Origin: Undaria pinnatifida
Lineage: Eukaryota; Sar; Phaeophyceae; Laminariales; Alariaceae
Assembly (NCBI GenBank): GCA_012845835.1
Contig: JABAKD010000016.1
Coordinates: 10,120,121 to 10,184,120, forward strand
DNA: 64,000 bases
Reading direction: 5' to 3'
Part shown: piece after piece, positions 1 through 60,480 of the stretch
Layout of the letters: every line of letters begins with the position of its first letter
Position numbering within the stretch: the first letter of the stretch is position 1
Translations under genes and position numbers: made by a program
The notes under the pieces: generated by a model
The model's input: the letters and a program-made list of their open reading frames with translations, nothing else
What the model was told of the DNA's origin: nothing
The model's database searches: none

Positions 1-3000
1 GTTGCACATGCTGGAGCGGTTTTATTGGTGGGTTGGCATGGATATGTGCACCCGGTGGTGGCTTCGCCACTGCCTGAGCGCGGAAAACCCCACGGCTGAC
101 TGTCCGCTGGCCCATCATATCAATGCCTCTATCGGAAGGTTCAGGTGTCGCCGTCAGTGTTGACTACTTCGGCCCCCTTCCGGTCACACCACGAGGCAAC
201 CTACATCCTGCTGTTCACCGATCGCTTCAGTCGTCGGGCCGGCATGTTCCCCGTCACTGCCGCTGAGTTCACCGCGGAGGGTACAGCCAATATCCTGGTG
301 AACCAATACATCCCCTTGTGGGGGTGCCCGCGCACCATACTCTCGGACAACGGACTGCATTTCTGCTCCAAGCTTTCACAAGCTGTATATCAGCTGTTGG
401 GTGTGCACAAGCTTGCTACCAGCTCCTATCATCCCAACTGTAGCGGGGGCGTTGAGCGGGTAAACCACACTATGGCACAAATGCTGGCTATGGTCGTCAA
501 GGAGCGACAAGACGATTGGGACTTGCATCTGCCCCACGTCGAACTCGCTGAAACAACAATTCAGTCAGCGCGGCGACAGGTCTGGCGCCCAACGAGGTCC
601 ACATGGGCAGACTCCCACGGCTCCCCCTAACGGTTTTCGACCGCACTGGCGTCGTGGGACACCAGAGTCTGACCCGTGACCACCTGGCCTATTGCGACTT
701 GGCCACCGACCGGCAAAAGCGCGCGAACGACATTGTCCGCGCACACCACGCCTTCACCGTTTCTCGTGTTAACCGCATAAACTCCGCCCTCGCCGACGCG
801 CTGCGTCCAGCACCAAGACTTCGATACGGATGGTTGGGCATGGGTGTACGATTCTGCCTCTACCATCTGCCAGGGTATGAAGGCGAACACCGACGCCAAG
901 GTACTCAAGGCCAAACTCGCGCTTAACTGGACGGGCCCGTACAAGATTCTGGCAGTCGGTCCCTGCTCCGCCGCCGAGATCCCGGACGGTTCGCCGCTCG
1001 GCAGCAGCCTCCTTTATTTGGATCTCCCTTTCGACCTGCCCGGTTCGAACGCTCGTCGGCGTGTGGCAATCGAGCGCTTCAAGCCCTTCGCCAACCGCCA
1101 CGACAGTGGGGACATGCCTAAATACCCACCGGCGGGGCTGACGCAGTACGTACTCAACAATTTTTCCAAGAAGTCCCCGCCGTACCACGTCACTCAAGAC
1201 AACGTTTCGACTCCCCTACAACGGCTGGAGGTGGAGCAGATCACTGGTCCGTACCACTTCACTCAAGACAACGTTTCGACTCCCCTCCAACGGCTGGAGG
1301 TGGAGCATATCACTGGTCATCAGTCGGTACAGGGGCAGGTGGCGTCATCGCGGTGCTATACAAGACGCATTGGGCGGGACTCTCCGAACCTTCCTGGGGG
1401 CGCGAAATGGACCTCTACCTCTCCCGCTCCCACATCTTGCGTTGTTGGGCCAGAACCCCGGACCAGCACCGCCAAACCAATCGCCTCTATCACCGAATGC
1501 GGATCGGGGCGGCACAGCGCGAGCTCTCCAGCAACAACGGGGAACGTTTCCTAGCGCCGGGCTACGCCTGTGTTCCCGCGCCGATTGGCTCCGTCGCTAC
1601 CACAACACGGCACTTCCTAAGCGAGCCCACTTTTGGTACAAGAGAGACGATGGGTTATGGTGGCTTGGAAAAATCAGCGCGAGCACTACCGAGGACAAGG
1701 TATACCTGGTCCGCTTGTGGACGACCAGGGACCGATTAAACTTCCTCTTCCCCCGGCGCGCTACATGACTTCGACGGGAGCCGTACGAGGCTCTTGGTGC
1801 CTGCAAGTTCACATCGCCAGTGCGTTTCCTCGGGAATTCAACGTAACGTAGATGAATCTCGAGGCGCGGCCGTGGCCAGTTGACTTTCAAGCCGCCACCG
1901 CTCCTCGATAGTTCTTCATTTTTTGGAGTTATGATGTTTGAGTCTTTGTCTTTGGGTTCGCAGTATCCTGAGAGTCTTCGTCGGGTTTGGGGCGGGTCTT
2001 CCCATTGTTGTTTTTCTTTTTGTCCTGCCTACCCCCCTGCTCAGTGCCGGGCCAGGGTTCGGGTAAAACGCCGCTATCTGAGGCGCAGGGCTATCGCTTT
2101 TTCGTCGTTGTTCGATTTCGCCCTGCCGACGCCCTCCTCAGCCCAAAGCCGGGGGGCGACCAGGGTACCCTGTTCGCGCGTAACATGGTACAGGGCTATG
2201 TACGGGTCTGTGCGTCATCTTTTATCTTTTGTGTGTTGTATTTGTTCTACTTTGCTTTTTCGACTAAACACTTCCCCCCCTAGTGGGGCTGTAGGTGTTG
2301 CCACCTTCCATCCCGGGTATTTGCCGTTTCCTCGTCTGACCCCTCGCCTTGCCGATGGCCCGCGGGAGATTTTTCGCATGACTTCTCCCTTGTGTCAGCG
2401 CCCGTGTTCCCCTCCATATTGACGAGGGCTCGCCTCGCAATGGTACCTTTTCTGTGTTTGGTTTGCCGTAGAGCCTTTCCTGCCCCCCCCCGCCACACCG
2501 GCGGCATGCGGCAGGTTCTAGAGCCTTTTCTGCCCCCCCCAGCCACACCGGCGGCACGCGGCAGGTTTTTGATGGGCGACTTTTGCCTTGTTGTAGGGTC
2601 TGCGTTTCTTTCAACTGCTCTTTTTCGCGTGTTCCTGGCTCCATAGCCAGGCGGTTAGAGGCGTGGGAGTGTGTTTTGAGGAGCCGCATCTTCGACTCAT
2701 GGTCTAGTTCGTATAACCGGAGTTTCCCCGAATCTCCCATATTTCTGCATATGCGACTCATCAGGGTGTGCTAGTGTTAAGATACGGCCTCGAAAGGCCT
2801 GTAATTATCCGTATTTGAGATCATTTGGATGGGTTTCGTATGATAAGGTTGGCGTTTTATGTTCGGGAAAGTTAGGAAATAGATCGGGAGGCACGTGCCT
2901 CCGATCTCAGATGCTATCCTGGGCTCTGGTGGAATCGAATAAAGCAACGTCTTACGAAGGAAAAGAAAGTGAGTACTCTCCGAGAACCTGCTCCATTGGC

Positions 3001-29916: not shown

Positions 29917-32900
29917 ATGCCGCCGCGGCGAGGCGTGAGGCGAAAGGCGGGCGCGAGGGGGGCAGGAGCCGCGGCAAGCAGTGTCCTGGCTCGTGGTGCC
30001 TGCAGCGACCTCGAGGAAAAGCACCAGGAGCATGTACAATACATTGAGGACATTGTCCAAGGGCTCAAAGACAAGGGTGAGTGAGGAGGAAGTCGTTGCT
30101 TCGTGCTGGGCTATTGACGATTGAAAGAGAGGCTCCTCGCTCGCACGTTCGATGACCCCCCGGTGTGATCCTCGTATGATACAAGTACAAGCAACTGAAC
30201 GAGAGGGCTCTTCCAAAGACTGGATAGGCGATAGGCTAAGTGAGACACTGCAGGGGTGGGCATAGTTCCACTTGTTCTTTATCTAGGAGGCATGGTTCCT
30301 TAGGTGTATGCATGCCGTGCCTATAAGCTGCAGCTTCCCCAGGCTTACTTTCAAGCCCACCAGAACCAAAGGGTACGTGCGGTGCGTGCTCGTACTCCTA
30401 GAGATTGGTGCTACGTGCGCGGGCAAGAAATCGGTGCCACAGGTACACAAACAGTATACAGCATAGACTACACCATGCAGATTGGAGTAGCAGATAATTA
30501 CGAGCACACAACACAGGGTCCCGCAAGCCAGAACGCACGATCTTGAGCAGCTGGGCACCAAGAGGCTGGCAGGCAGTTCGGTTGTACGAAGTCACTAAGG
30601 AATGCGGGTGCAGTTGCGACGCTCGGCAAATCTGGTCCGTGCAACTCTCAGCCCTCGAAACATAGCCTTATACCCCCAACCTTCCCCATCCCTAACCCCA
30701 ACTCGAAGCCGAAACACAAGGCCTTAAACCCGAGGATGGCTCCTAAACGCCTCTGCAGACGTAGTTTAAGTCACGATTATTATGTAGTCATGATTGTCAG
30801 TTCCCTGCGACGCTGCGTCCTGTCGTCGTGGCCGCTGCCAAATGGTAATACTCGTGCAGCAAACAGCAGTATCGCAATGTCGCAAGTACGCGGTAATTTT
30901 CCGTGTATTACAGGCCAAAAACGAGGAGACGGGCTTAACCCCTTTAGAGCCCCGAAACCCCTCTCTATACTAATTCCAAATAATTTAATATTACCTAAAA
31001 ATGGGCTTCCGGTTGTAAAGGCGTTAACCGCTTTACAACTGCACCCACGTTTGTGGACACAAACTACTTGTAACTAGACCTGGGTCTTTTTTTTTGCAGC
31101 AGTTGAAGATTTAAGACGCATGATTCGTAGCGTGCTAGTGATTTCAGCTAAGCAAAAGCCAGGTATGATACACGTTTCGTATACGTTCGTAGTAGCACTA
31201 CAGCGCCACAGCACGCCAAAAAATGACCCCCCCCCCCTTTCCCCCCCCTCCCCTCCCTTTTCTTTGTTCTATGTTTCACTCCGTGCATCGCGCGCGCGAA
31301 AAGTGGACAATAAGTGCGCCTGCATCATGAACGAACAGGCGCTTACCATAGATGCGCTTTTTAGAGCCCGCGCTCGCGCCAAGTCGTCGATCCCCAAGCA
31401 GTTTCGCGAGATGAACCTTGCGGAGTACTGTGCCAACTACGGGGAGGATTATGACGCGATTCTGTTCCACGCTCTTCCACCTGAGGAGAGGGAAGAGATT
31501 ATGGCCAAGGGTGGACGGGGCGGGGATGGGGACGAAGAGGAGGACGAGGACGAGAACGAAGAGAACAATCCAGGGTACGTGGGAGCGGAAGAGGCGGGTG
31601 GGCTCGCGTCGGGTAATTGGTGGTGATGGTAGTGGTGGGGGGTGGCGTTGGTGTTGATGATGGTGTTGATGATGGTGCTGCTTCTTTTGTTGCTGCTGCT
31701 GTTGTTGCTGCTGTCATCGTTATATGATTAACACCAACGCCTTTCTTCACCCGCTGGAGGCAGCACACAGCACATGTATGTGTTCCCATGTTGGTATTTG
31801 ATAAAGCCAAAGGGTGGTTTCTTTGGTGGCTAATGTCTTCAGGCCACGAGTCGCGCACACACACACATTACCAAACGTGAACAAAAACGTGACGTTGCGC
31901 TCTTTTCGTCCCCTTCTCACTGATTGCTCGGTGCCGCGCCTCGACTTCACTGTTGCCGGGTCAAAACGTCTGCGAATCGGTCCGACAACCGTTCCGACAA
32001 CTGACTCGCCACCTGCCCCCCCTCGCCCCCCCCCCCCCCCCCCGCCTGACTCGTTTTCAGGACAAAATGATCGCCAACCGATTTACTGATCGCCCCAACA
32101 TCTGATACGCTGTCTTGCCGCCCCCCTTTGCCCCTGGAAGTGGCCACACCAGAAAAAAATTGAATGCATTCGAAGCTGTCAATCCACATGCAAGAAAAGT
32201 ACGCACAAGGTGCGGAAGCCCGCCCCAAACGGGTTTCGTAGTAGGACGCAGCCCACCCTTCATACCACTCCCCGAACACCTCACGGCGCTTCGCGCTTGA
32301 TGCACGCGATATCTTCGTGGTCGGTGAAAACCCCGACGTGCTCCGTCCCGGCATTGTAGGTAGGGATGCGAGGGTCAATGGTCATACGACTACGGCTATG
32401 CATGAAATGAGTAACCCCCCCCTCTCCTCGCTCTCCTACTCTTCTTGATCGCGGCGGAAACCCTTTTGCGCTTCGCAGCACGGCCGTCAGGGGACGGCGC
32501 CCTCGAGTGGTGCCGCAGACGCCTTCAGGCAGGAGTAGGCCTCCCGCTGGACGCGCAACGCGCTCTGCCATGAAGGCCAAGCCTGTGGCTTTGACTGCGG
32601 CGCTGCCACTTCGAGCCGTGCCATCGACGCCCTCAGGCAGGGACAGGCCTCCTACCGGCCGTGTGATGCGCTCTGCGATCAAGGCTAAGGGCGGAGGGTA
32701 TGAGGCACCGACGCCGATGATAGCAAGTAAGGTAAGCTTCGCAAGCCTCTGTGTTGAGGAGAGATGAAGCCGGACGTTTTGTGCTCCGCGTCGAAACTCG
32801 GCGCCGCTTAGAGAGCAGTAGTATTAATGTGTTAGCCCTTTAGGTACCCGGGTATAGCCACCTAAAAAACCAGAAAGAAGGCTTTATCACCCGCCTACGA

Positions 32901-35900
32901 ATAGCATGGAGCAGTTCCAGTGTTTTATGCTGCGCGCGTGAGTCGTTCTACGGTAGCCCCCCCAACTTTTCTTTCACGAAATCGCCGTTTTCGAAACCAG
33001 CTCCCGCTCTTATCTCCTGCGATACGATGCCTCTTGCCACCCCGACGTCGTCTTCCGATAGTCCTTTGCAAACAAGAGAACACATGGAGATATTGTTTTC
33101 GTAGCATCCTTCCTCGTGTCGAGCAGCCATGAAACGTTCGTTAAAGAAAATCAATGGTTTTTGGGGGGGGGGGGTGTCGTAGAATCAATCGCGTGTCCTG
33201 GGCCGCTCTGCATTGCAAATAGTCCCCCCCTTCCCTATCTCAGCAGTCCGGACCGCTATGTGTGGCCGACCCCGTAATCGTCTATTTTGTTTAGCATGTT
33301 TTTTTCCTCAAGTTCCGAAGTGGTTGATGTACGTATTTATTTTCAGTAATTCATGGTGTGATATGCCATGTATAGGTTATCCTCGCAGGTCAGATTTTCC
33401 TTCGGCCAAGCGGCACTCCAACCTCTCGGCCCAGGAGAAGAGCTGAAGGAACACGAGCCTTGTCTAGCTTGCTGAAACACGCCTACCTACCCTTTTGCAT
33501 ACCCTCCCTTTCCCCCTTCGGCTTCTTGTTGGGGGTTGATGACAGGACGAACCAGAGCTGCCGGCTGGCGTCGTTACGGAACTCCGCAAACGTGAGATTT
33601 TACGATGTTTCAGTTGTCAGTTGTTGTGTGTATGTCGTATGTCGTAACCCAGACAATGCTTATCATTTCGCTCTGCCTGACGGGCGCTCCCACCTGTCTT
33701 TCCAAAACTGGAATTGTATTTTTTCTATTTTAGAATGCAGCAGTGGGTTCCCCGATTTAAGCGCGCCTCGCGACCAACCGAAACAGGCGTTCTTATTGCC
33801 TTTATAACTGGAAACCCGTTGTTTGGGGACACATTACTTGGAATTAGTATAGGGAGGAGTCTTGAGGCTCTAAAGGGGTTAACTCCAAGTCGTTATTATC
33901 TGTAGTGGGAAATATGTGGCATTTAGTGTGGCGGGACATGCCAAGTTGGCCGCTCTTATCTCCCGAGTGGTCTTAACAAGGGTGCTCTTAAATCGGGGTA
34001 CCCACTGTATACTGTATTCGATTTGTCACCGCAACCATTGAAAGCTCGGTTATCTGTGTGTTTCGCTATGGGGGGTGTGCTTCCAAAATCTGCGAAAATC
34101 CGGTCGAACGGTCAAGGTATAAAACGGTGCATGTTTTTTTAGTTTTGTTTACGATTTGTTAGGATAGTGTGTGTTAACGCTGGCACCTATTGTTTGCTAG
34201 GTTTGTTACGATATCGTTTGTTTACGCTGGCATCTGACCCTTGCCCCCCCGCCCCCCCCTTCCCCTACTTCTCCTCTGGTGATGTGCCTAGGTGCGAACC
34301 CCAATCACACCGTCTATGCGCACCTGGACGCGATCGTCCAATCCAGAATCGACGTGAGCATTTTTTACGGTTATAGGTTGCTGTTGCGCTCGAGCCGTAA
34401 GCCTGGTTTGGTTGGGTTGAGTGTGTACTACTGATGTACTCCCGTGCTCGTGCAGTTTTACTGCGCGCCGATGGTCGATCGTAAATATTTGTCGCCCAGG
34501 CTCGGAGATACTGCTGTACTTCTGTACTCTGACAGTTTTGTTTTCCAGTTTTTTTTGTACCCGTGTGGCCGACCAACAATGCGTCAGCAGTGGTTATAGG
34601 CGACGGTCGTATGCCAGCTGCATAGGAGACCGTGCTGTGTCGGCCTGTGTTTTTACTGGCATAGGATGGGTGTTGTGGTTTCTCTATCCTCGCTCCCGCG
34701 AGACTCGCGCTGTCGATCTACCGCGAGGAAATACAAGCGTGCTCAAGGCTCGGCGCGCAAGGCGTACTAGGCGTTTCCCGCGCTCGTCACGCGGTGGCAA
34801 GGGTTGACACTGCAGCTGCATCGTGCCTCGTGGTGTGGTCGCTCCGTCCCCCCATGTCGGTGTCTGCTCCCCTTTTCCGCGGTTTTTCGACAAGGGGGGT
34901 CGAGCTTTCGATGGAACAATAAAATGCTTCCACCTTCCTTGTACCACCAGCTACGGTTGTGGCTTTTCCATGAGGACGGTGGCGTGCCTTTGGCCGCGCC
35001 CTAACTCCCTGCCTTGCTCCCGCCTCCTCCGCCCACCCCCCCTTCCGCTCCTCTCACCTCCCCGCTCCCATGCATTAAATGAGTGAACCCCCTCCCCTCC
35101 CGCCAGTCCATCTTACGAGCGGTTCTTGGAAGGATGTAGCTCACCCTTCATGCGACTCGCCGCGGTGCAAGCAATGTCTGCCTGGTTGGTGAAAACCCGA
35201 CGTGCTCCGTCCCGGCATTGTAGGGATGCGAGGGTCTATAGTCATACGACTACGGCCATGCACAAATTGAGTACACCTCCCTCCCCCCCCGCCGCCGCCT
35301 TTATCCCACTTGGAACGCGCCCTTGCGATATCAGGACGTGCCTATCAAGGCGGCGGAGCGATGTGAGCAGCTTCAACGAAAGTTCAAAGAAGGTTCCGCC
35401 GTACTGCGCGCCACGGTCCCGGGGCTTGCTAAGGGGGGTGCCGCGTCTTCTGGAAAACGGGCAAGGGTTGCGACCAATGAAACTTCACCCCCCGTCGACG
35501 GAGTAGAGGCGGGGGAGGCGACGCAGGAGGCGGAGGAAGAGGAGGTGGTGGTGGTGGTGGGGGGTCCGGCTACGGTTGATCTTTCGACGGAGGGAGGGCC
35601 GTACAATGGGTGCGTTTTCACGCTATCGCTGGAGGAGAAAGGAGAGGCGCGTATGATAGGACGATCTACGGGAAAGAAGGTGAGTCGAGGAGGCGGGGGG
35701 GGGGGGGGAAGTGGGCCATATGATCTCACTGCTGGTGTGTTTGTTGCTCGATAGGCTCCTGGTGGAGGCGCTGACTCGGGAGTGGGCGGGGTGTGACAGG
35801 CTTAGTGGGCGTTAAATGTTCGAAACGAGCTCACAGCTTGCATGTTTTTGTAGAAAAATTAAGATATGTAATTAATTTCACGAGAAGAGTGCCTGCGACT

Positions 35901-38900
35901 GACGTGTCACGCAAGCATGCAAAGCTGAGTATAGACCACTCAATCGTTCGGAGTCACAGCTGACGTCTTTGTAATTATATTTATTAAAGGGTGGCGAGCC
36001 GGGAGATTCTTCGGGAACGGCGACTGCCGCCGCGTATCGGTCGTTTCCCTTGATGTTGCCACTCGGGAGTTTAGTGCGGTACAATTACCTCCGATGCGGG
36101 ATAAAAAAAACGTTTGAACTTTGTTCCAACTTCAGAACGTATCCCATATTATTAAAAGTGGTATGTTTACGAAAACCAAGTTTGGTGGGTACTAGTCGGG
36201 TAGGAAAATACCATGGTATATAACAATAGAATTAAAGCTGCCCAATGTGACAATCCAAGGCCAACCCAAACCCACGAAAAGATTAGCGAAAAATTAGGTT
36301 ACATTTTCTTATTTCCTACCCTTCATGTATATATATCCATATATATTTTTTTCGTTTTTTTTCTAACCCAGCTTTTTGGTGGGTTGGTTGTTGACCTTGG
36401 GTCATGACGTCCGTCGGTTTCTATACTGTTGATGGTATGGTTTGTTTTCCAACCCAACCGAGTTTGGAAATCGCTAACACTCTACTACTACTCGTAGCGA
36501 ATAATTTGTCCCTTAAGACACGGGTGCAGTTCTGAAGGGGATGCTGTAATGTCGGTTATGGTATCTGGTGAAGCTGGGGAGTCGTCTGCTCTTGACAAGG
36601 AGCTTTCTGTTTCGAGTGGAGGCTTTGCAACCAGTGAGTCGAAAATACATGTCGCCACCTGCTAGAGATACTATAAGATAGCACTGTAAGCGACCGAGCA
36701 ACATTAAGAAGTCTGTTTTTTTTTCTGAACTACTCTGTGTACGGGCGTTCGTTCTCGGCACGGCTGTAACAAGCGTTGTTTGGGTTGGGCTGCCCTCCCT
36801 CTCCGCTCATCGTCAACTCTTGTTGGGATGCCTCACACACCTAATACAATACGATATATAAATGCTTGGGGGGGTTTTTCAGGTGTTCCAGGCCGGGGAG
36901 GATCTTGCTCGGGCTTGGGTCGATCGATAGCTGTTTCGACTACTGTTCTCTTCGTTGATTGATGTCTAACGATAATCGAGTTCAGTATACGTGGTACACG
37001 ATATCGATAAATGAAAAACCTAATCGATGTACGTTTTATACGATATCGATGTTCGATACACATCAGTGTGTCGATTGTTTTAGTCCGGTGTCAGCGTGAA
37101 AAATACGAAATACGGAGATGCAGGGGGGTGCAGAGGGCAAAACGCGTTCGATGAGACACATCGAACTCCGATATTTCGATACATCGAAAATTTTGCCAGG
37201 TATACGATATCCAACAATGCAAATCTACATATCTCGCAACCTCTGCCGCCCACAACAACGACCCAGAAGCCACCAGCGACAAAAGTTTTTTGTTTACATA
37301 AGACCCAGTTTTTTTATCATGCAATATGTTGTGAATGATTTTTGGCTAATGTTCCTGGTGTGTGTGTGTGTGTGTGTTTTTTTTTTCAAAATTACGTTTT
37401 TTATTGTCTTGATAGTTCAAGCAGAAGGGCATCAGCCTGTCGAAGGACTCTGAGGTGTCGATCTCCCACGGGAAGTTCGAGAACGCCAACGGAAAGGTGA
37501 CCTTCACGGATGTGGGCAGCACCAACGGGACCGATGTTGACGGGTGAGCACAAAAAATGCCGGGCTTTTCATCGACAAATGCGGGGCTTTTCATTGAAAA
37601 ATGCTGGGCTTTTGATGGGCCATAATCCAGTCCGTGGGTCGGGCCAGCAGATTCTAAAAAAGTAGCGGATCGAGTCGGGTGGAGCCAGGAGGCGTTTTAA
37701 ATTTTACGGGTCCGGTCGGGTCGGGCCAGGGGGTTTTCAATTCTTACGGGGCGCGGCGGGGCGGGGCGGGGCGGGGCGGGGCGGGGCGGGGCGGGGCGGG
37801 GCGGGGCGGGGCAGGGCAGGGCGGGTCACCCTGATTCTATCCGACCCGTGTGAAAAGCCATGAAAAAATGCTGTAATATTAGACCACTGCTATGACCGCC
37901 CCCCCCCACCAAAAATATATGGTATTATAATTCTATCCGACCCGTGTGAAAAGCCATGAAAAAATGCTTTAATAATAGACCACTGCTATGACCGCCCCCC
38001 CCCACCAAAAATATATGGTATTATAATAAGTGGTGTATAAAGGCCAAACTACGTCTCGACGCGTCAAAAGTCAAAATGACCGGTCTCCTAATAATAGCGC
38101 CTTTGGTACGCGGTGGCGAGATTATTGAGTTTACCCCCCCACACACACACCTTACGCCTGGTTGGTGAAAACCCGACGTGCTCCGTCCCGGCATAGTAAA
38201 GAGCGAGGGTCTATGGTCACACGATTACGGCCATGCACAAACTGAGTACACCCCCCCCCCCACCCTTAACCCCGGCTTAGAATACATGTATAGTAGTTGG
38301 CCTTGGTTGGCACCGACGCCGTAAAACGTTTTATGTATATTGGGGTTGGCGTTGGTTGGTAACGATACTGTAAAACATGCCAATCACTGCGTGAGCTAGG
38401 CAACCAGGGTACCTTTTTGTTTTATTTTATTTTGGCGGTCACCATGATGGTTATCGATTTAGATGATATTGTGCGGGGTGGAGAACCCTAACTCCGCACA
38501 AGGGAAATGATCGCATCACGTCGTAGTGTGAGTATGGTAAGGAACCCACGAGGTAGTTACATGGTACTACCCATTGCTGTCTCTGGAGTGGCCACACCAG
38601 AAAACAAAGTAACTCATTGGCGCTGTCATCCATTAGCAAGAAAGTAGGCACATTATGCCGAAGTCCCTCTTACGAGCGAGTTCTTGGAAGGACGCAATTC
38701 ACACTTTTCATGCGACTCGCCGAACACCTCACGGCGCTTCGCGCTTGGTGCAAGCAATGCCTGCCTGGTTAGTGAAAACCCGATGTGCTTCGTCCCGGAA
38801 TAGTAGGGGTACGAGGGTCTATGGTCATACGACTACGGCCATGCACAAACTGAGTACACCCCCCCCTTACGGGACCCAGGGATAGTATGAGGTGCTAAGT

Positions 38901-40341
38901 GACCGAGCAACGTTGAGAAGTCGTTTTTTTTCTGAATCGCCGAAGTTCCATTTTAAGTAATGTAAGTTTGGGTGGGTTGAGGAAACATGGCTCCAGGCGG
39001 GCGGTCAAGGAAAAGAGAGAAGTTCGGGTGGGACCACCGGCGGGAGCAGGAAGCCTCATCCAATCCAATACTTAGATGAAATGATCGATAACAGAGTTAA
39101 AGAATACCGCAGCACTGTGTATCGGTACTATATACGGGAGAACACAGTTACCAGGACCCAATATGTTAATTAATAGTAAACAGAGGATTATATAGGTTTA
39201 TTTATGTTGTAGGTTCTGGTTTCTACTGCTGTGGTCCTCTGATGAAACATCATGCTGTGAGTGCGCAGCGGTACAAGTATTTGAAACGAAGAAAATAAAA
39301 GAACGTTTCAGCTGTGATGATGATGATGAGATCGACCAAGAAGGACTTTGGTCAAAACTCATCTATGCAAGCTGCGTGAGATACTTCGATCGCAAGTGTT
39401 ACGGCGTGTGTGCACCCTCGTGAAGGACACAGGTCGGTGACCCCCCTGACTGAAGTATTTATAGTATCTTGCTGTGCGCGTGTGATATGGCTTCTCGCGT
39501 TGTACATTGGGTGCTAAAGCCGCGGGCGATGATGTGTGATTGTGGCAAGCGCCTGAGAGCTTTTGAGTTGACAACATTTTTTGTTCAGGAGCGATCCAAC
39601 AACTTCGACTCCACAACCCTGGACGCTGCACGCTTGTTGTATCGACACAGCACCGTCAGCGACAAGATATCTGTTTGTCGGACGCTCCTTCAGCTTCATT
39701 CACCCTTGAGAGGACTAGCTTCACCCCCGCCCTCCCCAACAACCCACCCACCCACCCACCCACCCACCCCCGAACGTCATTTGCTTGCTTCATGTAGAGC
39801 TGACTGTGTTGTTAGTTGTCTAGACGGAAACCGCTTTGTTTCGCCCCGTGAAGTTCCACCGCGCTTCAATAATCGCGACGAGAAGACCGATCTCCCTCCC
39901 CCACGTTCTTGTTTTTTGGATGTTAATTTTTTTTGTCACGTTCCTGCGCTGCAAGACGAGCCTCGCACACGGCACCACCTCGCTCTCGAGGCCGCTTCTA
40001 TCTCCTTGTCCTTGTCGTTGTTATTGTCCTTGAGTCGTTGTGTCGCCGTTTTTAAGTCCTTTTTTTAATGTTAGTACTGTAAAATTGTCGCACTCTAACT
40101 CCAAGCAGTGTGTCTCCCAACACGTTTGTTGCAGTTTTAAAATGGTGGATTCAGCACACGTCCGTTTCCTGCGCACGCTGTATTTTTGACGCGCGCGGAT
40201 TTTTGTGTGTGTGTGTTTTCGTGCGCAATTTTCTTTTTCAGAGAGCCAGCGGAACAAGGCCACCCGTACGAAATTGTGGATGGGTCGAAGCTGCTGATTG
40301 GACAGGGTATCTTCACGGTTTCCGTAACGTGGGGGTGTTGA
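29917..40341 (+). CDS. Borealin-like protein fused to a C-terminal FHA domain
   Basis: Exons 29917-30076, 31304-31574, 32479-32731, 33546-33591, 34292-34353, 35335-35679, 37416-37543 and 40242-40341 join in frame to 454 residues. An extra 18-codon exon at 33389-33442 is likely (see findings). The basic N-terminus [12 protein letters not shown] is followed by a helix ([20 protein letters not shown]), then [15 protein letters not shown], which matches human borealin LPKALREMNWLDYF, then an acidic run ([12 protein letters not shown]). The third exon has paired TPSGR-RPP-GR-RSA motifs like borealin's TP-rich middle. Next comes a coiled region ([20 protein letters not shown]). The FHA domain spans three exons: MIGRSTGKK, then SISHGKFE, then [12 protein letters not shown], with Arg, Ser-x-x-His and Asn-Gly-Thr all present. 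It ends [12 protein letters not shown]. Borealin belongs to the chromosomal passenger complex (Aurora B, INCENP, Survivin) at centromeres and the spindle midzone. A phosphopeptide-binding role for the FHA part is inferred. Exon order and phase argue for one gene; separate genes remain possible. Confidence 0.8.
30935..31076 (+). repeat. TTAA-flanked MITE-like repeat (family M2), full copy plus partial
   Basis: The full copy runs from TTAACCCCTTTAGAGCCCC at 30,935 to GGCGTTAA ending at 31,026. A second partial copy in the opposite sense (TTAACCGCTTTACAACTG) follows, sharing the TTAA. Both lie in the first intron of the borealin-FHA gene. Confidence 0.7.
32127..32420 (+). repeat. Intron-resident repeat family M3 (copy 1)
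   Basis: About 290 bp, from 'gtggccacaccagaaa' to 'atgagtaacccccc'. Includes 'acctcacggcgcttcgcgct' and 'gacgtgctccgtcccggcat'. Other copies lie at 35,100-35,290, 38,155-38,262 and 38,580-38,872, all in introns of the same gene and all in the same orientation. Each ends in a C-run. It may be a SINE or small transposon; no clear RNA polymerase III boxes were established. Confidence 0.7.
32941..33186 (+). repeat. MITE-like repeat (family M1, copy 3)
   Basis: Best preserved of three copies. 'agtcgttctacggtagcccc' begins it and a long G-run plus TCGTAGAATCA ends it, with 'gaaatcgccgttttcgaaac' near the left end. It lies in an intron of the borealin-FHA gene. Confidence 0.7.
33798..33882 (-). repeat. 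TTAA-flanked MITE-like repeat (family M2)
   Basis: 'gcctttataactggaaaccc' through 'ctctaaaggggttaa', with the left TTAA altered. It lies in an intron of the borealin-FHA gene. A further degenerate copy sits near 19,285-19,370 in an RPL19 intron. Confidence 0.65.
35100..35290 (+). repeat. Repeat family M3 (copy 2, partial)
   Basis: Matches copy 4 from 'cttacgagcggttcttggaa' to 'gagtacacctccc'. It ends about 45 bp upstream of the exon starting at 35,335. Confidence 0.7.
37745..37822 (+). repeat. (GGGGC)n pentanucleotide microsatellite
   Basis: About fourteen direct GGGGC-type units inside a larger CCCGACCC-type region (37,625-37,865). It lies in the last intron of the borealin-FHA gene. Such a G-rich strand could form quadruplexes; that is inference. 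Confidence 0.9.
37834..38027 (+). repeat. Tandem duplication, 96-bp unit
   Basis: Two nearly identical 96-bp units starting 'attctatccgacccgtgtg' at 37,834 and 37,930. Each contains a C-run and ends 'atatatggtattataat'. The few differences point to a recent duplication. Confidence 0.9.
38155..38262 (+). repeat. Repeat family M3 (copy 3, partial)
   Basis: Contains 'gtgaaaacccgacgtgctcc' and 'acggccatgcacaaactgag' followed by a C-run. It matches the 3' part of the other M3 copies. Confidence 0.7.
38580..38872 (+). repeat. Repeat family M3 (copy 4)
   Basis: The most complete copy, from 'gtggccacaccagaaaac' to 'gagtacaccccccc'. It lies in the last intron of the borealin-FHA gene. Confidence 0.75.
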
Positions 40342-41885: not shown

Positions 41886-42376
41886 TGTAATAGAGTGTCG
41901 GTATAGCGGGCAATAGATTCGGTAAGATAGTCCGCAGAGTAACGGTCTATTGGCCACAAGAAGATTCCCTTAGAACGGAATATTCTTAGTGAAGCGGATA
42001 ACCCGTAGAGAATAGCTAGCTTATACCACAAGAACGTTCTCGGTAATGGAACGTCCTCCTCTGGACAAGATAGGTAGAAGTAAGCGCGTTAAGCGCTCTT
42101 GGGAATATAGCACACCTAGGAGAACGTTCCTTGTACGTTCCATAGGTAAAGGTCCAGAAGAGAGCACAGCAGCAATGCTGGAGGGTGAAGCGAACTCTGT
42201 GAGCCTCACCCCACCCCCATGCTCTCACTCCTTCCCCTTTCCTGTCTCCTTCGAGCTTCTCATAGCTCAACGCCAGTAATAAGAAACCATCAAAGAAGAA
42301 CCGGTGCTGTCTCCAAGCGAAGCTGATACCCCTGCGTCCCTTCCCTCCCAACATCCGGCACCACGACTCCTTCACA
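41886..42376 (+). repeat. 5' LTR of the young Ty3/gypsy element
   Basis: 491 bp beginning TGTAATAGAG and ending CTTCACA, identical as read to 48,443-48,933. Preceded by CTCG, the left half of the target duplication. Confidence 0.93.
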
Positions 42377-45300
42377 ATCTGGCGTCGTCGGCAGGAGAAG
42401 GACGGCGGTGTCCGCATCACCATCAACTATAAGAAGCTGAACGCCATCAGCTCCCTCGGACAGCTTCCCATCCCCCGCGTTGACGAGGTCCTCGATTCTT
42501 TAGGAAAAGGGCGCATCTTCTCCCTCTTCGACTTGGTCTCCTCGTTCCACCAAATCACCATCGACAAGGATACCATCCCTTTGACGGCGTTTTGCACGCC
42601 AGACCGGCTCTTCGAGTGGCTTGTAATGCCGCAAGGCAGCAGTGCCTCCCCCGGTTGGTTCGTTAAGGTTATTAACGAGGTCATCAAAGGCTTGGAACGC
42701 GTCGCCGCGTACCTCGACGACATCATCGTCTTCGACCCCGACCCCACCGACCACGTCGCCAACATCCGAGCCCTTTTTGGTCGCCTCCGTAAGCACCGCC
42801 TCAAACTTTCTCCCTCCAAGGCCAAAATTGGCGCCACAACCGCCGACTTCCTGGGGCACACCATCTCCGCTGGCGGCTACAGCCCCAACTCCGAAAAGGT
42901 CGCCGCCCTCACCAAAATGCCCATGCCCACCGACAAGAAACAGGTGCGGTCACTCCTCGGAGGTATCAACTACTATGGCAAGTTCCTACCAAACCTTTCC
43001 AGACGCCTTCGCCCCATCAACGCTCTACTCAAGCAGGGCGCCACCTTCGACTTCACCCCCGCCATGGAAGCCACCATCCGCGCCATCCTCCACGAACTTA
43101 CCGAGCCACCGATCCTCGTCTACCCCGACTGGGACGCCGTCGCCGACGACTCCCGCCCTTTCCGCCTCTACTGCGACGCTAGCATCGACGGCTTTGGAGC
43201 GACTCTCGAGCAGGAACAACTTGACGGCTCCGTCCGCCCGATAATCTACATCAGCCGCGCCACTCTGGACTCCGAACGTTCATGGACACCCCTCGACCTC
43301 GAGGCCGGCAGCATCGTTTGGGCGATCAAGCGACTACGCGGGCATCTGTGGTCCACCCGTTTCGAAATTTATTCGGACCACAAGGCGCTCGAAAACATCG
43401 CCAAGGTTGGTGAGCACAACGCTCGCGTCCGGCGCTGGCTCGAGTTCCTTTCGGCTTACAACTACACACTGAAGTACCGCAAAGGTACGGCCAACGGCAA
43501 CGCCGACTTCCTTTCACGCCTACCACAACCAGCCACCGACGCCGACCGCACCGGACGCAACCGCCTCACTGGCCCGGACACTGTTGGCATCTACCTCATC
43601 CGCCCCTGCGGCTTCGCGCCGAACGAGCCGCCTACACCGGGTATCGGCTTGGGTGGGCTCGTGCCCCCCCCTTCAAGACCCATTCCAACAATCCAGCCTC
43701 TTCCCTTCACCGCCGACGACTATACCGACTTCCGCCTACTGGGACCACGCATGGAGCACCACGGCATCCCCAACAACTTCGTCGGGCCTATTTCGACCCG
43801 CGACTCCACCGCCAGGCCGCTCGTCAGCTCCGAGAATGCCGCCGTGAACACCGGCGCTCCTCCTGGTTCGGCTTCCAGGCCACCCGTCGTCTCCCCGCTG
43901 TCCACCATTGGCGCCACGGAACCACCGCCTTCTGGTCTGATCTCTTCACGGACCCGCCATCGCGCCGCCGCCGCCGCGGGAAACCCCCGACCTACCGCAG
44001 ACTATGGGTTCGGACGCCGTCCGAAACCAACCGTATCCAGAAGATCTACATCTACCCGTCGACCGCACACGCCCCCGGCCGGGGCCCAACCAAGGCTTCC
44101 CCCGACGACAACGCCTCCAGCTGCCGTCCCCACGCCGCCCGCGTCACCCGCACCAACCGCACCAAGACCGGTCCCTCCTTCGACGACTTCTCCGACGTCC
44201 CCATCAACACCGCCACTTCTGCTCCCGGAGCCTGTTGTCGACCTCAACATCGACCCCCACCTCCTCGCCCGCGTTGAGCGCTACACCTACAGAGACTGGG
44301 CGCGCGAACAACGCGCAGAGCCCGTGTGCTACGCCGCCATCCGCTTCCTATCGTTGGACTCCCCTTCTCCGCCGCCGGCTGACCTCTTGGATTCCATCCC
44401 CTCGGCCCAGCGCCCACTACTCTCCGACGTCCTCGCACTTGCCGCCAAAGGCAGACTCCACCGCACTGACGACGAAACAGCCCTCCTGGTCCAACGACCA
44501 CCCACATCTCAACCCGGGAACAGCCTACCGCCACCCGCACCCTATCCCCCCCGCATCTACGTTCCAATGCTGATGCGCCCCTGGGTGCTGAACACATGCC
44601 ACGCCGACACCTCCCTACACCTTGGAGTTACCCGGACGGTTCGCATGCTGGCACGGTTTTACTGGTGGATCGGCATGGACGTCTCCGCCCGCTGGTGGAT
44701 CCGCCGCTGCCTTCACTGCCAGGCGCGCAAGACCTCCCGACACACCATTCGCTGGCCGACCCTCTCCCTTCCTTTACCCAACGGCCCTGGCATCACCGTC
44801 AGCGTCGACTACTTCGGGCCCCTACCTCTCACACCGCGCGGGAACGTGCACATCCTTTTGTTTACCGACCGCTTCAGCCGCCGGGCCGACATGTTCGCTG
44901 TATCAGCAGAGAACTTCACGGCCGCCGGAACTGCCGACATCCTGCTCAACGAGTACATTCCTCTCTGGGGGTGCCCGGTGACGCTCCTCTCCGACAATGG
45001 TCAACAATTCACCTCCAAGCTGGCAACCATCGTCTACGACCGCGTTGGCATCCGCAAGGTCAACACCAGCGCCTATCACCCCTGCACCAACGGCGGCGTC
45101 GAGCGGGTCAACCATGTACTGGCCCAGATGCTCTCCATGGTTGGCAACGAGAAGCAAACCGACTGGGACGTGCTACTGCCGCACGTGTCGGCGGCCTACA
45201 ACAACTCTGTCAACGCCGCCACCGGACTGGCGCCCAACGAGATCCACATCGGCCGCCTACCACGCCTCCCGCTCTCGGTCTTCGAACCCGAAAACATCGG

Positions 45301-48300
45301 CGGTCACCAGAGCCTGGATCGCGACCACCTAGTCTACATCAACCTTGCCACCGACCGGCAACAACGCGCCTACTCCCTCGTCCGAGAGCTCCACCGACTT
45401 ACCGTCTCGCGTCTACAACGCCGCAACGCGCCCATCATGGCCGCCCTCCTCGCCTCCCCCCCTTTCTCCGTTGGCGGCTGGGCCTGGGTCTACAACTCCG
45501 CCTCCACTATCCGCCAGGGCGCCAAGAAGGGCACCGACGCAACCGTTTTGAAGACGAAACTCTCGTTGAACTGGAACGGGCCTTTCAAGATCCTCGCGGT
45601 GGGCCCGACTGCAGCCTCCGACACCCCCGACAACCGGCCGCTACAAGACAAGCTGCTTTTCCTCGATCTACCTTCAGACCTTCCGGGACGGGACTCCAAA
45701 CCACGCGTCTCCGTCAAACGGTGCAAGCCCTGCCACAACCCCGACGACACCAGCGACATACCCAAGCACCTACCAGCGGACCTCACAACATACGTCCTCA
45801 CAGCTTCCGCTGCCAAGTCCCCCCCCTACCACGTCACCCTCGACGACGTCACACCACCACAGGAGCGTCTTGAGGTTGAGCAAATCACCGGCCACCAACT
45901 CGTACGCGGCCGCGGCGGAGTCATCGCCGTCCTATACGAGACCCACTGGACCGGACTCCTCAGCCCCTCGTGGGAACGCGAGCTCGACCTCCAACACTTC
46001 AGGCGCCATATTTTACTCTACTGGTCCGGAAGACCGACACAACACCGTCAGACCAACCGCCTCTACCGCCAGATGCGCATCGGCGCCGCACACCGCGAGC
46101 TCTCCCGATCTCAAGGCCAACTCTTCCTCGCCCCCGGCTACACCCTGGTCCCCCGCGACCTTTGGCTTCGCAATTTCAGAAACTCCACCCTCCCCTCCGG
46201 GGCACACGTTTGGTACAAGGCACGTGACGGCCTCTGGTGGCTAGGCAAGATCGCTCACCGCGCGCCACCGGACGCCTCCTCGCGACCCCCCCCGGACCCT
46301 TCCCCGGGTAGTTCCTACATCATCAGGTTCCTAGACGACCCCGGCCCGATCAAGATCGACCTCCAGCCAGCTCGCTACACTACCGCCCGGAACGCCATCT
46401 CCGGATCGTGGTGCCTTCAACGCCATGGGCATGGGAGCCTATCTCGTGGGGTGCTACGGAATTCTGATGCTTCCCGCGGTGCCCCTACCGTTCCAACTCC
46501 CCCCATTGGTTAGTTTCGGGTGTTTTATCTGTTTTTGGTTATTCTACAGTAGTTTTGGGATTAGTTCTTCACGGTCAGCCTTCTACAACAGTTTCGATAG
46601 TACCACCTCATGGTTAGGCCTTTCACCTACGATAGCATTGGGAATGATTCTTCATAGTCAGCCTTCAACCTGCAGTAACTTTAGTGGTATTATCGTGGTC
46701 ATTCTTCCGACCTACAGGGTTTTTTGTTTCGTCATGTCTTCTCGTGGTTAGCCTACAACCGTTATCAGGCTTTGAGTTTGGTTTTAACATTGAGGTGTCC
46801 CTCGCAATACCTCCGCTTTTGGTTTGTTCTTCATACCAGCGTTTGCCTCTTTTTCTCACCACCATCGATTCCGTCTGTCCCACTCCGTGACGGCTGACAA
46901 CTCGTGGTGGTAGAGCAGTATTCATAATTTTCTGCAGTATGCAGTGTTTTAGGTACGCCCGTCTGACGACCCGGTCTTTCTTTGCCCCACTCTGTGATGG
47001 CTATCGAACCAGGACCGCCTCGTACCTAGGGTGTGTTAAGGTGTTTCTCCCCCTCTCTATTTTATATATTTTTTTTCTTTTGTTTTCTCTCTACCACTAC
47101 GGTCTCCGCTAGTCTCGTTTCGTCCAGGCTTTCGAACCGTGGTCGTCTCGTTTTCTTCTTGTGTTTGTACTTCACGATTCCTCCGCCGATACTCGGTGAC
47201 TTTGCCCCTAGGCGCTCGATCTTTGTGTTGTATCCTGACCGCCGCCGGTGCCGCTTTGCCCTGACGGCATCGCCGAGCTCTAGGCCTGATCGGTTTTCTG
47301 CGCACTTTGCCAAGTAGGGCCCCGGCAGCCTTGCAGACTTGCAAGACCACCGGAACGCCAACCAACCTTTCTTTCTTTGTATTCTCGTGTTTTCTTCGTG
47401 TTTGGGTCACGGTAGCTTTTGCCGCCCCACAAGGCTGCCGACTTCTCAGTAACCATATTCCTGCCACGGTTGATCCCCTCGAACTGTGCTCAGGTTCCCG
47501 TGAACTTCCCAAACACGGCGGTAATTATGCTCTCCCTTGCTTATGAGTCTTTTGGTTCCTGTTTTTTTTCTTCTAGGTGTACACGTTGCGTTGCCATTCT
47601 ACGCTATATGACGCGCCAGTCGACCCCCCCTGTAGGCGCTGTTTTGGCATGCTAACTCCGTCGCCCAGCGCTGCTGACATTTTTTTTTTCTGTGTTCGAA
47701 CGAATTAGGTCGATCCACTTGCGTACCTCTTTGGCTACCCTGACGTTCTGTTCGTGTTGGTTGAGTTACCTTGCTACGTTTGCCGGTTTTGTTCCCAGCG
47801 CAAACAGACCTCCCAAGTCGCCACGTTGTTCGTTCTACCAAGTGGTCCTAGCAGCCCCTTAGTTTTAGCAAGCCTTACGGCAACCTAGCAGCGTTCGTTT
47901 TGTCTTACGTGTTATTTTTCATTTTGTTCGGGCTTTGGCCACGCGGCTACGCATAATGCCTCCCGGCCATATATACTTTCGAACTTGGGTGATGCCCCTT
48001 TGCGAGCTTTCGAGTAACCGACCCTGTTCGGCGTACGACTCTCCGTTCGCTCCCCCCTGGGCCCTACATAGATCGCTCCGGTAATATGTTTCTGTTTTCC
48101 CTTTACTTTCGCTTTGATCTCTGCCTTTCTTAGCTGCCTTCCCTTTGTCTTCGGGTTTCCTTTTTGGTTTTAAGTTTTCAATACTCTACATAGGTTGCTC
48201 CATTCTGGTTTTCCGTTTCCCTCTCTTCCTGTGGCCTGCCTTTTAGCGATCTGCTTTATTAGTGAATAGCCCTATCCTTGGAGTTTAGGCCTCTTTACGA

Positions 48301-56678: not shown

Positions 56679-59600
56679 TGTTAAATGTAGATTATATCAA
56701 CCAATATAGTGTGGTGCTCGGGGTATTACGGGATGTACGGTAGCCCAGGAATAATATGTGGAAAGTCCGTTTGCTATAGCGAACGGGACATTGCGGGGTA
56801 TCCGCCATAGTGAGAATTGTTACATTGTGGCCAGTTGATGGACAGTTTATTTGTGGTTTGGGGAGGTATGGAGGATTATGGCTCGTGGGCGAGCGTGGTG
56901 GGGAGCAGCTTATGCCCCCCTCCATCTCACTCTTCTCTACACCCACCTCTCCCCGTTTCTCTCCGTTTTCGCTTGGGTACTGCTGTAATATTCAAGACAA
57001 AAACACCACATTATTTTATCGCGGGCATACTGCAGAGGGCAGTACTTTGTCTAAGCACACAGCTCGGGGCTGTTGTTGCTACTCCGTTTCCTGAACATCA
57101 CTGTCATTGAACACGTTAACGATAAGTTCGAACTTGACGGTGTTTGATCTGAGATGGGGGACCACGAGACCATATAAGATTTGAAGGCGCAGCTCGCTTC
57201 GCAGGCAAGGCTCTTTGAGGAAAGGCTATCGGCAACAGAAGGAAAGTCGGGAGAACACCGGCGGACTGCAAGCGACACCCACCGGTGGAGACCTGCCCTC
57301 ATCAGGTGTAGATATTTCAGGGGGTGTGTAGCAGTCTATCCATTGGACCTAGGGAGACCAGTACCATCAAGTGGGCTGTTCCCAAATTCAACGGCAGTAG
57401 TGGTGTGGAATACCCTCTGTGGAAGCGACGTTTTGAAGGCTATGCAATAATTAGCGGTTGCATGCAGGCCTTTACGACTGTGACTGATACGACGGCAGGT
57501 GATCCATCTGTGACGTCCCGTTTTTCGCTAGACCAAGGATTTACTGAAATTAGCGTGAACAGGTCCCGATTAGCTTGGACTTGCATAACGGAGAGTGTTA
57601 CCGACCGCGAGTTGTTGAGCAGGGTGTTCGACACTAATTCTCCTAATGTAGCTTGACGTACGCTCAATGACTGGTTCTTGCCGAAAACACTGGCTGAGAA
57701 TTCCAAGTGGAAACGACTGTTCAACGATCTGGTCGTGGAGAAGAAGGAAGAACCGGTGAGATTTTTAGCGCGTGTAGACAAGATTGTCGGCGTTTTGGGA
57801 TCCCTGGGAGTGCACTTACCTACAGAGGATGTGAACCTCAAAATTGTAGAAGTTCTCACTGACGACTACGAGTTCGATCAGCGTACCATATTGTACAGAG
57901 ATAACATCACCCGGGCCGAGATAGAGGCTATAGTCAGGCAAAGACACACAATCATGTCAAGAGGTGCGAGCACCAAAGTTCGAAATGTAGGACAAGCCCT
58001 AATTGCGAACAAGCCTGGCCGCCGAAATCGTAAGCAGGAAGGTAGTGGAAAGGGTGGCCGAGCTGGTAAGGGTGTTTCCGATTATGTTGTTGCAGCCAAG
58101 AACGACAACAGCAGCAGTACGAAGGTCGGGAAGTACGACGACATGCGAAACAAGTGTCACCGATGCTTGGAGCCAGGCCATCGGTGGTTCAACTGCATAG
58201 CGCATGTCATCCCTGCCGCGAAGAAGTCGCAAAACGGCTCTGGTGAGATTATAGGGTGTTTGGCGATTGGTATGCTTGGTGAGAGAGATGCGGTAGGAGA
58301 GCGCGAGAAGGGTACGGACGGCACAGAGAAATGGATAGCTGATAGTGGTGCGACCTTTCACATGACTAGATCAGCTGACTTACTCCGTGACGTGCAGCCT
58401 TCCGAGGACAAGGTTAAGATTGGCAATGACACCCCTGGTAGACGTTGAGGGTTACGGGTCGATGACTGTAGTTTTCCCGAACAAGGCAGAAGGTGCCACT
58501 GTAAGGCTAGACGAAGTGGCATACGTACCTAGCTGGCTTTCAACCTTTTTTCTTCAATGGCTGCGCACACGCGAGGAGTAGGTTTCGCAACTGACGATAA
58601 GGATATGAGCGTGACCCTAGCGGATGGGTGTCTCAAGTTTTGGAGTAATGGATCTGGATACTGTAACTATGGTAGAAGGATTGATCCCGATGACGACTAC
58701 ATCCCCTTTTCCCTGTTGGTTCCCGAACCCATCGAGAACGTCGTGCAACCTGCCCACCCCATTTCCTTGGAGTTTCCTATTGAAGCCCCCGGCAGTGCTA
58801 ACTCGTGTGAGACTGAATGGCTCAGTAGTTTGGCCTTCTTGCTCGAGAACCCCATGCAACCTGCCCATACTATTCCCCTGGCGTGCCCTGTGATAGCCCC
58901 CGGCAGGGCTAACTTGCGTGATACTGCTGTAGACATCAACGTCTTCCACTGCGTACACGGCCATGCAAACGAGTTGTTGTTGAGAGAGACTGCAAAATCT
59001 TTAGGTGTAGAGCTACTCGGTAGGTCATGACCGACCGTGCACTGGGTGTTCCATGGCCAAGGGGTATCGTAAGCCGATCGCTAACAGTACGAAATCACGC
59101 GCCACAAAGTAGCTAGGAAGAGTTTTCGTGGATCTCAGTGGCCCTAAGAGTATTCCTTCGTTGCTTGGTAAGAAATACGTCATGATAGTGAACGACGACT
59201 TTACCCGGGACGCATGGGTATACTTTTTCGAGCGTAAGTCCGATGCTGCTGACGCCTTCAGGAAATTTTCGGCTGACGTGCGTGGGGATGGTGTGCCGTC
59301 GGAAGTAGAGAGAGTAAGGTCTGACAACTGAGGAGAGTTTTTTTGGGGGGAGTTCGGGGACGTGTGCAGGTAGTACTGTGTAAAACAGGAATTCACCAAC
59401 GCAAAGAATCCGGAGCTAAACGGCGTTGCCGAGAGAGCTCTGGGTATCATCCAGAACGCGGCACTTGCCGCGCGCATCCAAGCCCCCATCCTCTTCCCTC
59501 ACGTCGAATTGCCACCGTCGGAGACCTCCTGGGCCGGGGCAGTACACTGGGCGTGCGAAGCCTTGAACCGCACCGCGACCACGTCCAACCCGGGCAGCAA

Positions 59601-60480
59601 GTTGCCGTACGAGATGTGGCATGGTAAGGCAGCACCCGCATCACCGCACCCGTTTCTTCGTCCGGAATATTGCCGCTGGAACCGTCCGTCGAAGTCGTTC
59701 CCCAGGTGCGAGAGTAGCTTCTACCTCGGGCCGGGCATTGACCACCCTCGTGGCTCATTGCGGATGCTGACGAGGGCGAACAAGGTGGTGGAAACAAGGA
59801 ACGTCACCTGGGAGGCGCCACCGGTCATGGAGGTGCCGCCGGTGCAACTGCAGCAACTGGCATCGCCGGAGCTGGCAGGGGCGCCGGAGCTGGGAGGGAC
59901 GTCAGAACAGGGAGGGGCATCGGAACTGGGAGAAATGGCAGAGCCGGGAGGGCTAGATTATTTCGATTCTGGCCCAGCGACTCGATTGCCGATGCTGGGG
60001 AGAGGAATCCCCCATCAACCTCGAGTGGCTTCTCCGGCGGGGAGTGTAGGCATTGGTGGTCAAGGTGAGCGGGGTTCTGTTGACGGTGTTAATATGCCGG
60101 GCCCCGACGCTACAACTGCCCCGTCAGGTGATTATTTGTCGTCGGTAAGCAGTGAATCGTCTGTCGACGGGGAAAACCCGGGCGAGGCGTCATCATCGGA
60201 CGAGAATGGTCCGGTTACTACGATGGCGCGGACTGCGGCGCGCCAACTTGAATCGCACCTGGTTGGACCTGGAGATGGAGAGCAGCTGGGACGGACTAGA
60301 GCGCAGACGCGAGCGCTCAATCACCCCGTCTTCTCTCCGTTTTCGCTTGGGTACTGCTGTAATATTCAAGACATAAACACCATCTTTTTTTAGCTCGGGC
60401 ATACTGCAGAGGGCAGTACTTTGTCAAAGCACACAGCTCGGGGCTGTTGTTGCTACTCCGTCTCCTGAACATCACTCTCA
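56679..60480 (+). mobile_element. Ty1/copia LTR retrotransposon remnant
   Basis: Fossil copia-type element. A 5' LTR probably starts at 56,679 (TGTTAAATG) and ends near 57,106. A shorter copy of its 3' part lies at about 60,329-60,480. In between are gag with a CCHC zinc knuckle (CHRCLEPGHRWFNC, near 58,160), a protease motif (DSGA), and integrase zinc-binding and core segments, followed by a Gly/Glu-rich stretch. This protease-integrase order is typical of Ty1/copia (Pseudoviridae). Reverse transcriptase and RNase H are not seen. It is broken in many places (at least five) and the LTR copies differ at several sites, so it is old. Confidence 0.85.

Follow-up and report, generated by a model that had tools for sequence, protein, structure and literature searches.

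A gene of Undaria pinnatifida predicted to join a borealin-like part to an FHA domain

Introduction

The stretch of DNA analyzed here (the window) comprises 64,000 nucleotides of the brown alga Undaria pinnatifida (GenBank assembly GCA_012845835.1, contig JABAKD010000016.1, here contig C22, positions 10,120,121–10,184,120), and positions below are counted from its first letter unless a contig is named. Near its middle lies a predicted gene whose product would combine a borealin-like N-terminal half with a complete C-terminal FHA domain. To our knowledge, many eukaryotes lack a BIR-type Survivin, and the route by which their chromosomal passenger complex reaches chromatin is only partly known. 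The gene was first noticed in a reading of the DNA letters made without database searches (the sequence-only reading), which proposed a fusion of two passenger-complex modules; the analysis below follows up that proposal.

The Gene and Its Homologs

The predicted gene spans 29,917–40,341 (+), or 10.4 kb, and consists of eight exons that end in a TGA stop and encode a 454-residue product (Table 1). All seven introns, of 700–2,698 bases each, are GT–AG with compatible phases, and the guanine-plus-cytosine (GC) content of the third codon position is 0.675 compared with 0.45–0.57 in the introns. The splice-joined translation agrees with the gene ends, junctions and phases described in the sequence-only reading.

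A protein search at E up to 1 (7,993 candidates scored) returned two matches only: P0001 (EukProt g12609.t1, 536 residues; E 9.4e-78) and P0002 (Ectocarpus sp. 8 AP-2014, NCBI, 502 residues, representing a cluster of 11 member sequences; E 1.8e-77). A profile search at E up to 10 added a single protein, P0003 (E 1.6e-10). Identity to the window product is 46% for P0001 and 44% for P0002, and these two are 70% identical to each other. Each forms a single chain of alignment with it over the full length, beginning at the first Met, with gaps falling in low-complexity linkers, and all three proteins have in common an MPxRR start, the region of a predicted first helix (helix A), a short core, an acidic run, two Thr-Pro (TP) sites, exons 4 and 5, and the FHA domain. 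The repeat encoded by exon 3 consists of two 21-residue units with one TP site per unit, and both sites are kept in P0001 and P0002. A structural model of P0002, built from a two-sequence alignment and of low overall confidence (mean predicted local distance difference test score [pLDDT] 53.6; predicted template modeling score [pTM] 0.31), places helices at residues 52–101 and 275–314 and a beta-rich domain at 390–501, with much of the remainder under pLDDT 50.

Genome searches covered the 511-Mb assembly (68 contigs); the profile searches were read exon by exon, and domains split by introns can be missed. Four of the six genome matches to P0002 fall on the window locus (best E 1.5e-12) and the other two have E 0.41 and 0.56; the gene is therefore a conserved one of which no second copy was found. 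A closer paralog, which would make the window gene a side copy, was likewise looked for among these six matches and not found.

Two choices in the exon model were settled with the homologs. The longer variant of the sequence-only reading, which put the product at 454–472 residues, includes a 60-base open stretch between exons 1 and 2. Inclusion of this stretch lowers the local alignment scores to P0001 and P0002 from 809 and 808 to 791 and 791, and it would insert 20 residues into residues 42–90, which are otherwise free of gaps against the homologs. It was dropped from the model because the homologs align better without it, so that the lower figure of 454 stands; the stretch is probably non-coding or a cassette exon, judging from these alignments. 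An open piece after 33,388 was also tried as an exon and rejected (no fitting donor seen; scores falling to 776 and 787).

Because P0001 and P0002 span the whole layout, the linkage of the exons is not a chance chain, and we consider it nearly certain that this is a single fused gene. The alternative is that two adjacent genes, one borealin-like and one encoding an FHA protein, were misjoined by exon chaining, and it could appeal to a model built from genomic sequence and homologs over 10.4 kb with introns of up to 2.7 kb. It is rejected as highly improbable: annotated proteins of other genomes cover both halves, exons 4 and 5, which connect the halves, are conserved, and the frame of exon 6 has no Met from its upstream stop to ARMIGRS inside the FHA domain. 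The sequence-only reading had named separate transcripts for the two halves as one outcome that would undo the fusion; the presence of both halves in two full-length homologs upholds the fusion, and conservation of the entire chain speaks against two transcripts.

Table 1. Exons of the predicted gene, one open stretch dropped from the model, and INCENP IN-box loci elsewhere in the genome
Feature	Position	Strand	Content
Exon 1	29,917–30,076	+	Basic N terminus MPPRR; opening portion of predicted helix A (mapped by alignment from the P0002 model)
60-base open stretch with splice signals	31,103–31,162	+	Counted as an exon in the longer product of the sequence-only reading; in frame
Exon 2	31,304–31,574	+	Remainder of predicted helix A; borealin-like core 31,390–31,428; acidic run 31,516–31,569
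Exon 3	32,479–32,731	+	Basic middle; internal repeat TPSGRxRPPxGRxxRSAxKAK; conserved TP sites 32,519 and 32,627
Exon 4	33,546–33,591	+	Conserved linker between the halves; 7 of 15 residues identical to P0001, likewise to P0002
Exon 5	34,292–34,353	+	Start of predicted helix B, helical residues from 34,312; identity 10/21 (P0001), 8/21 (P0002)
Exon 6	35,335–35,679	+	Predicted helix B continued, ending at 35,412; linker; initial third of FHA domain; GRS 35,659–35,667
Exon 7	37,416–37,543	+	FHA core; SISH 37,458–37,469; STNGT, NG at 37,524–37,529; 28 of 42 residues identical to P0002
Exon 8	40,242–40,341	+	End of FHA domain and TGA stop
IN-box locus L008	C22:9,988,501–9,988,629		
IN-box locus L009	C33:8,757,273–8,757,407		
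IN-box locus L010	C24:10,504,429–10,504,557		

The FHA Domain

The FHA domain is complete and spread over three exons (6–8). The window product matches Pfam FHA at 33.3 bits (E 6.8e-8; cut-off 20.7), the homologs also lie above the cut-off (P0001, 25.6 bits; P0002, 28.9 bits), and all three proteins have the Gly-Arg-Ser, Ser-x-x-His and Asn-Gly positions unchanged. The sequence-only reading had called the domain complete from its Arg, SxxH and NGT, and with the Pfam score and the phosphate-binding residues in place this holds; the domain is very likely a working phospho-reader. When the P0002 model was searched with Foldseek, FHA chains ranked at the top, with a best E of 5.3e-5 and 25 matches reaching E 0.001 or lower, and rank 37 was the Arabidopsis FHA structure 1uht, which we take to be the product of At4g14490. 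AT4G14490 is given as BORI2 in PMC11794483. PDB searches with the whole protein or a profile listed FHA chains, whose best E values of 0.12 and 0.061 are not significant.

The Borealin-Like N-Terminal Half

PF10444, the Pfam family of Borealin/Nbl1, is the top family for the N-terminal 124 residues of the window product among 24,736 families, at 17.1 bits (E 0.0042), which is below its cut-off of 24.4 bits. The argument for a borealin depends on a short core, aligned against LPKALREMNWLDYF. For comparison, a reference alignment of 104 borealins of 260–300 residues was taken from the best 120 of 243 matches, of which the named ones are mammals. HHalign aligned the three N-terminal parts with these 104 sequences over 21 columns on the core (P 8.5e-5; probability 60%), and none of 400 column shuffles of the three-sequence profile scored as high (best shuffle 24.2 vs. 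38.0). The N-terminal part of the window product alone, compared with a primate borealin, gave p 5e-4, with 0 of 2,000 shuffles as good. Two patterns for the core, a loose and a stricter one, were written post hoc. The loose one (I/L-x-x-x-F/L-R-x-M-x-L/W-x-D/E-Y/F/L) is at the same position in the window product, P0001 and P0002, occurs in 114 of 120 borealins among the matches listed, and is found once in the 127,996 six-frame residues of the window and in 4 of 200,000 shuffled versions of the N-terminal part; the stricter one is present in the window product and in 113 of the 120 listed borealins and is absent from P0001 and P0002. A long N-terminal helix, a further mark of borealins, is seen in the P0002 model as the helix at 52–101 (about 50 residues) before the core, with a block pLDDT of 65–84.

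Several results weigh against a borealin with a role in the passenger complex. The window sequences reach 14.3–17.1 bits and not the 24.4 bits of the cut-off, P0001 and P0002 give no PF10444 match at E up to 10, and compared singly with borealin these two yield p 0.94 and 0.93. When the window sequence is left out of the HHalign profile, 83 of 400 shuffles are as good, the top-scoring stretch still falling on the core. The C-terminal borealin domain of animals (PF10512) has no match in the window product, P0001, P0002 or the genome, a genome search with PF10444 gave no match at E up to 0.001, and PDB searches with the N-terminal part list no borealin chain (one returned two unrelated matches, at E 1 and 1.9, the other none). 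For the Haspin kinase, the genome gave four matches, each a short kinase stretch and none above the cut-off, and the kinase of histone H3 Thr3 was thus not found.

Because of the sub-cut-off Pfam score and the negatives in homologs and genome, the N-terminal part is termed borealin-like and is not filed as a member of the family; as far as its sequence allows, it is probably a borealin. The pattern named in the sequence-only reading (basic start, helix, core, acidic run and TP-rich middle) is present in all its parts, whereas its statistical support is moderate and uneven. The profile match foreseen for residues 30–120 exists as a weak one at residues 78–97 only, below the cut-off, and of the two profiles suggested for the product, FHA passed its cut-off while borealin stayed at 17.1 vs. 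24.4 bits.

A Second Predicted Helix

Between the two halves lies a second predicted helix (helix B, window residues ~251–290, mapped from the P0002 model), which is absent from the sequence-only reading. Helix B starts with TVYAHL in the window product and TVWQCL in P0002 and is followed by a linker with an acidic run and by the FHA domain. The stand-alone protein P0003 (NCBI/JGI, 250 residues, from a source contig of 1,249 bases, so that a longer protein is possible) has a single helix at 39–89 starting with TVEQFL, an acidic linker and an FHA domain that aligns at E 9.8e-16. The helix of human Survivin begins LTLGEFL. With a helix B profile, the score to the P0003 helix is equaled or exceeded in 5 of 400 shuffles and that to the Survivin helix in 78 of 400, and single-sequence comparisons with these helices give p 0.12–0.60. 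By these profile shuffles and single-sequence p values the similarity is not significant, and a Survivin-type identity of helix B is not established from sequence. BORI proteins are described as using a conserved helical domain to join INCENP and borealin, and an FHA domain to read histone H3 phosphorylated at Thr3 (H3T3ph) (PMC10987093). If helix B were this BORI-type helical domain, the gene would be a borealin–BORI fusion. Helix B may carry more weight than the features that the sequence-only reading listed.

The Rest of the Passenger Complex in the Genome

Three INCENP IN-boxes in the genome lie above the cut-off, all in open reading frames (L008, E 1.4e-8; L009, E 6.2e-8; L010, E 1.4e-5; Table 1); a fourth match, at E 3, lies below it. 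Locus L008 is on the same contig as the borealin-like–FHA gene, ~161 kb from it. No BIR domain was found by Pfam in the window product, and the genome holds one BIR match, at E 0.85, under the cut-off and with an internal stop. A separate BORI-like gene was not found with P0003 as query, the best match being the FHA exon of the window (E 0.001) and the others having E 0.19 and 0.69. A census of FHA domains in the genome gave nine matches at E up to 0.01, and the FHA domain of the window was not among them, probably owing to its split across three exons. Because the exon-by-exon census missed this domain, the absences of BIR, BORI and Haspin are weak evidence; the search for a separate Survivin or BORI gene that the sequence-only reading had called for thus found none, while split domains may have escaped it.

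Comparison With Known Systems and Proposed Role

The window product resembles Borealin/Nbl1 (PF10444; human CDCA8) in its basic start, long predicted helix, I/L-P-K-x-x-R-E-M core, acidic run and TP-containing basic middle, and it differs in its sub-cut-off score, in lacking the PF10512 domain, and in its added second helix and FHA domain. With plant BORI1 and BORI2 (Borealin Related Interactors) it shares an FHA domain with intact phosphate-binding residues and possibly a bundle-forming helix, but its FHA domain is joined to a borealin-like part; the comparison is with published descriptions of the BORI proteins. P0003 has the same order of helix, acidic linker and FHA domain, without a borealin-like part in its known 250 residues. 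The likeness to Survivin is limited to a proposed equivalent place in the complex, since the window product has no BIR domain and the helix similarity is not significant.

On the favored reading, the gene product would be a borealin-like component of the chromosomal passenger complex with a phospho-reader of its own. In the manner of the Survivin–Borealin–INCENP bundle, helix A together with the REM core would pack against the N-terminal INCENP helix. The TP-bearing basic middle may contact chromatin and be phosphorylated in mitosis, and the FHA domain would bind a phosphothreonine on mitotic chromatin, much as plant BORI proteins bind phosphorylated H3. The conserved gene, its FHA domain with phosphate-binding residues, the borealin-like core, the two predicted helices and the IN-boxes in the genome are direct results, whereas complex membership, the FHA ligand and the role are inferred. 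We hold a borealin-type N-terminal part with a role in the passenger complex to be somewhat better than an even chance. The fuller proposal, in which one polypeptide supplies two of the three bundle helices (the borealin helix A and a Survivin-type helix B) as well as the FHA phospho-reader, is tentative and falls clearly short of even.

A different role altogether would be that of a coiled-coil FHA adaptor in DNA damage, the cytoskeleton or transcription, with the REM core a chance or convergent match of ~20 residues. The borealin signal is indeed short, below the Pfam cut-off and not significant in P0001 or P0002 alone, FHA domains serve many pathways, and the ligand here is only putative. 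However, the core is correctly placed between a predicted long helix and an acidic run, no shuffle of the three-sequence profile reaches its score, and PF10444 is the top family of the N-terminal part, so that we regard the adaptor as rather unlikely. Only slightly less doubtful is the view that the protein is borealin-like and has an FHA reader yet depends on a further, separate Survivin-type helix protein that has so far escaped detection, helix B being unrelated to Survivin or BORI. This would fit the lack of significant similarity of helix B to P0003 or to the Survivin helices, and a small separate gene may escape exon-by-exon genome searches; yet the stand-alone P0003 has the identical order of helix, linker and FHA domain, and its best match in the genome is the window gene. 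The separate partner is mostly a variant within the borealin-type role and not a competitor of it, and the likelihoods given for these readings do not sum to one.

If the borealin-type role is correct, the natural joining of a borealin-like part to an FHA reader would argue strongly, as a "Rosetta stone", that FHA readers also replace Survivin beyond plants, and INCENP with this one partner would offer a two-chain system for structural and binding studies. Under the fuller proposal, one partner would suffice to bring INCENP of this lineage to mitotic chromatin, and the covalent borealin–BORI fusion would fix a 1:1 ratio. Should the borealin half prove mistaken, what remains is a conserved, uncharacterized FHA protein of brown algae. 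No borealin–FHA fusion is named in the titles and abstract openings of the literature searched, a search that did not extend to Komaki et al. (2022). Survivin-like proteins are ascribed to heterokont algae in PMC12946202 with citation of that study (Komaki et al., 2022, PNAS), which may already include the protein described here.

Surrounding Sequence

By eye, the gene neighborhood contains retrotransposon-like open frames, of Ty3/gypsy and copia types, at 42,266–46,510 (+), 100–627 (+) and 57,657–60,390 (+). The introns of the gene hold a dispersed repeat in four copies (32,254–32,430; 35,164–35,290; 38,156–38,265; 38,702–38,873), 74–100% alike in the aligned pieces, and two of the introns carry inverted 50-base arms (30,935–30,984 and 33,833–33,882; 88% complementary, 2,848 bases apart). 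The last intron contains a 96-base tandem duplication (37,834–38,025; 98% identical). Elsewhere in the assembly, at C50:38,702–39,319 (locus L013), an intron-free 580-residue frame encodes a bacterial-looking Ser/Thr kinase with two FHA domains, and contig C50 may come from an associated bacterium.

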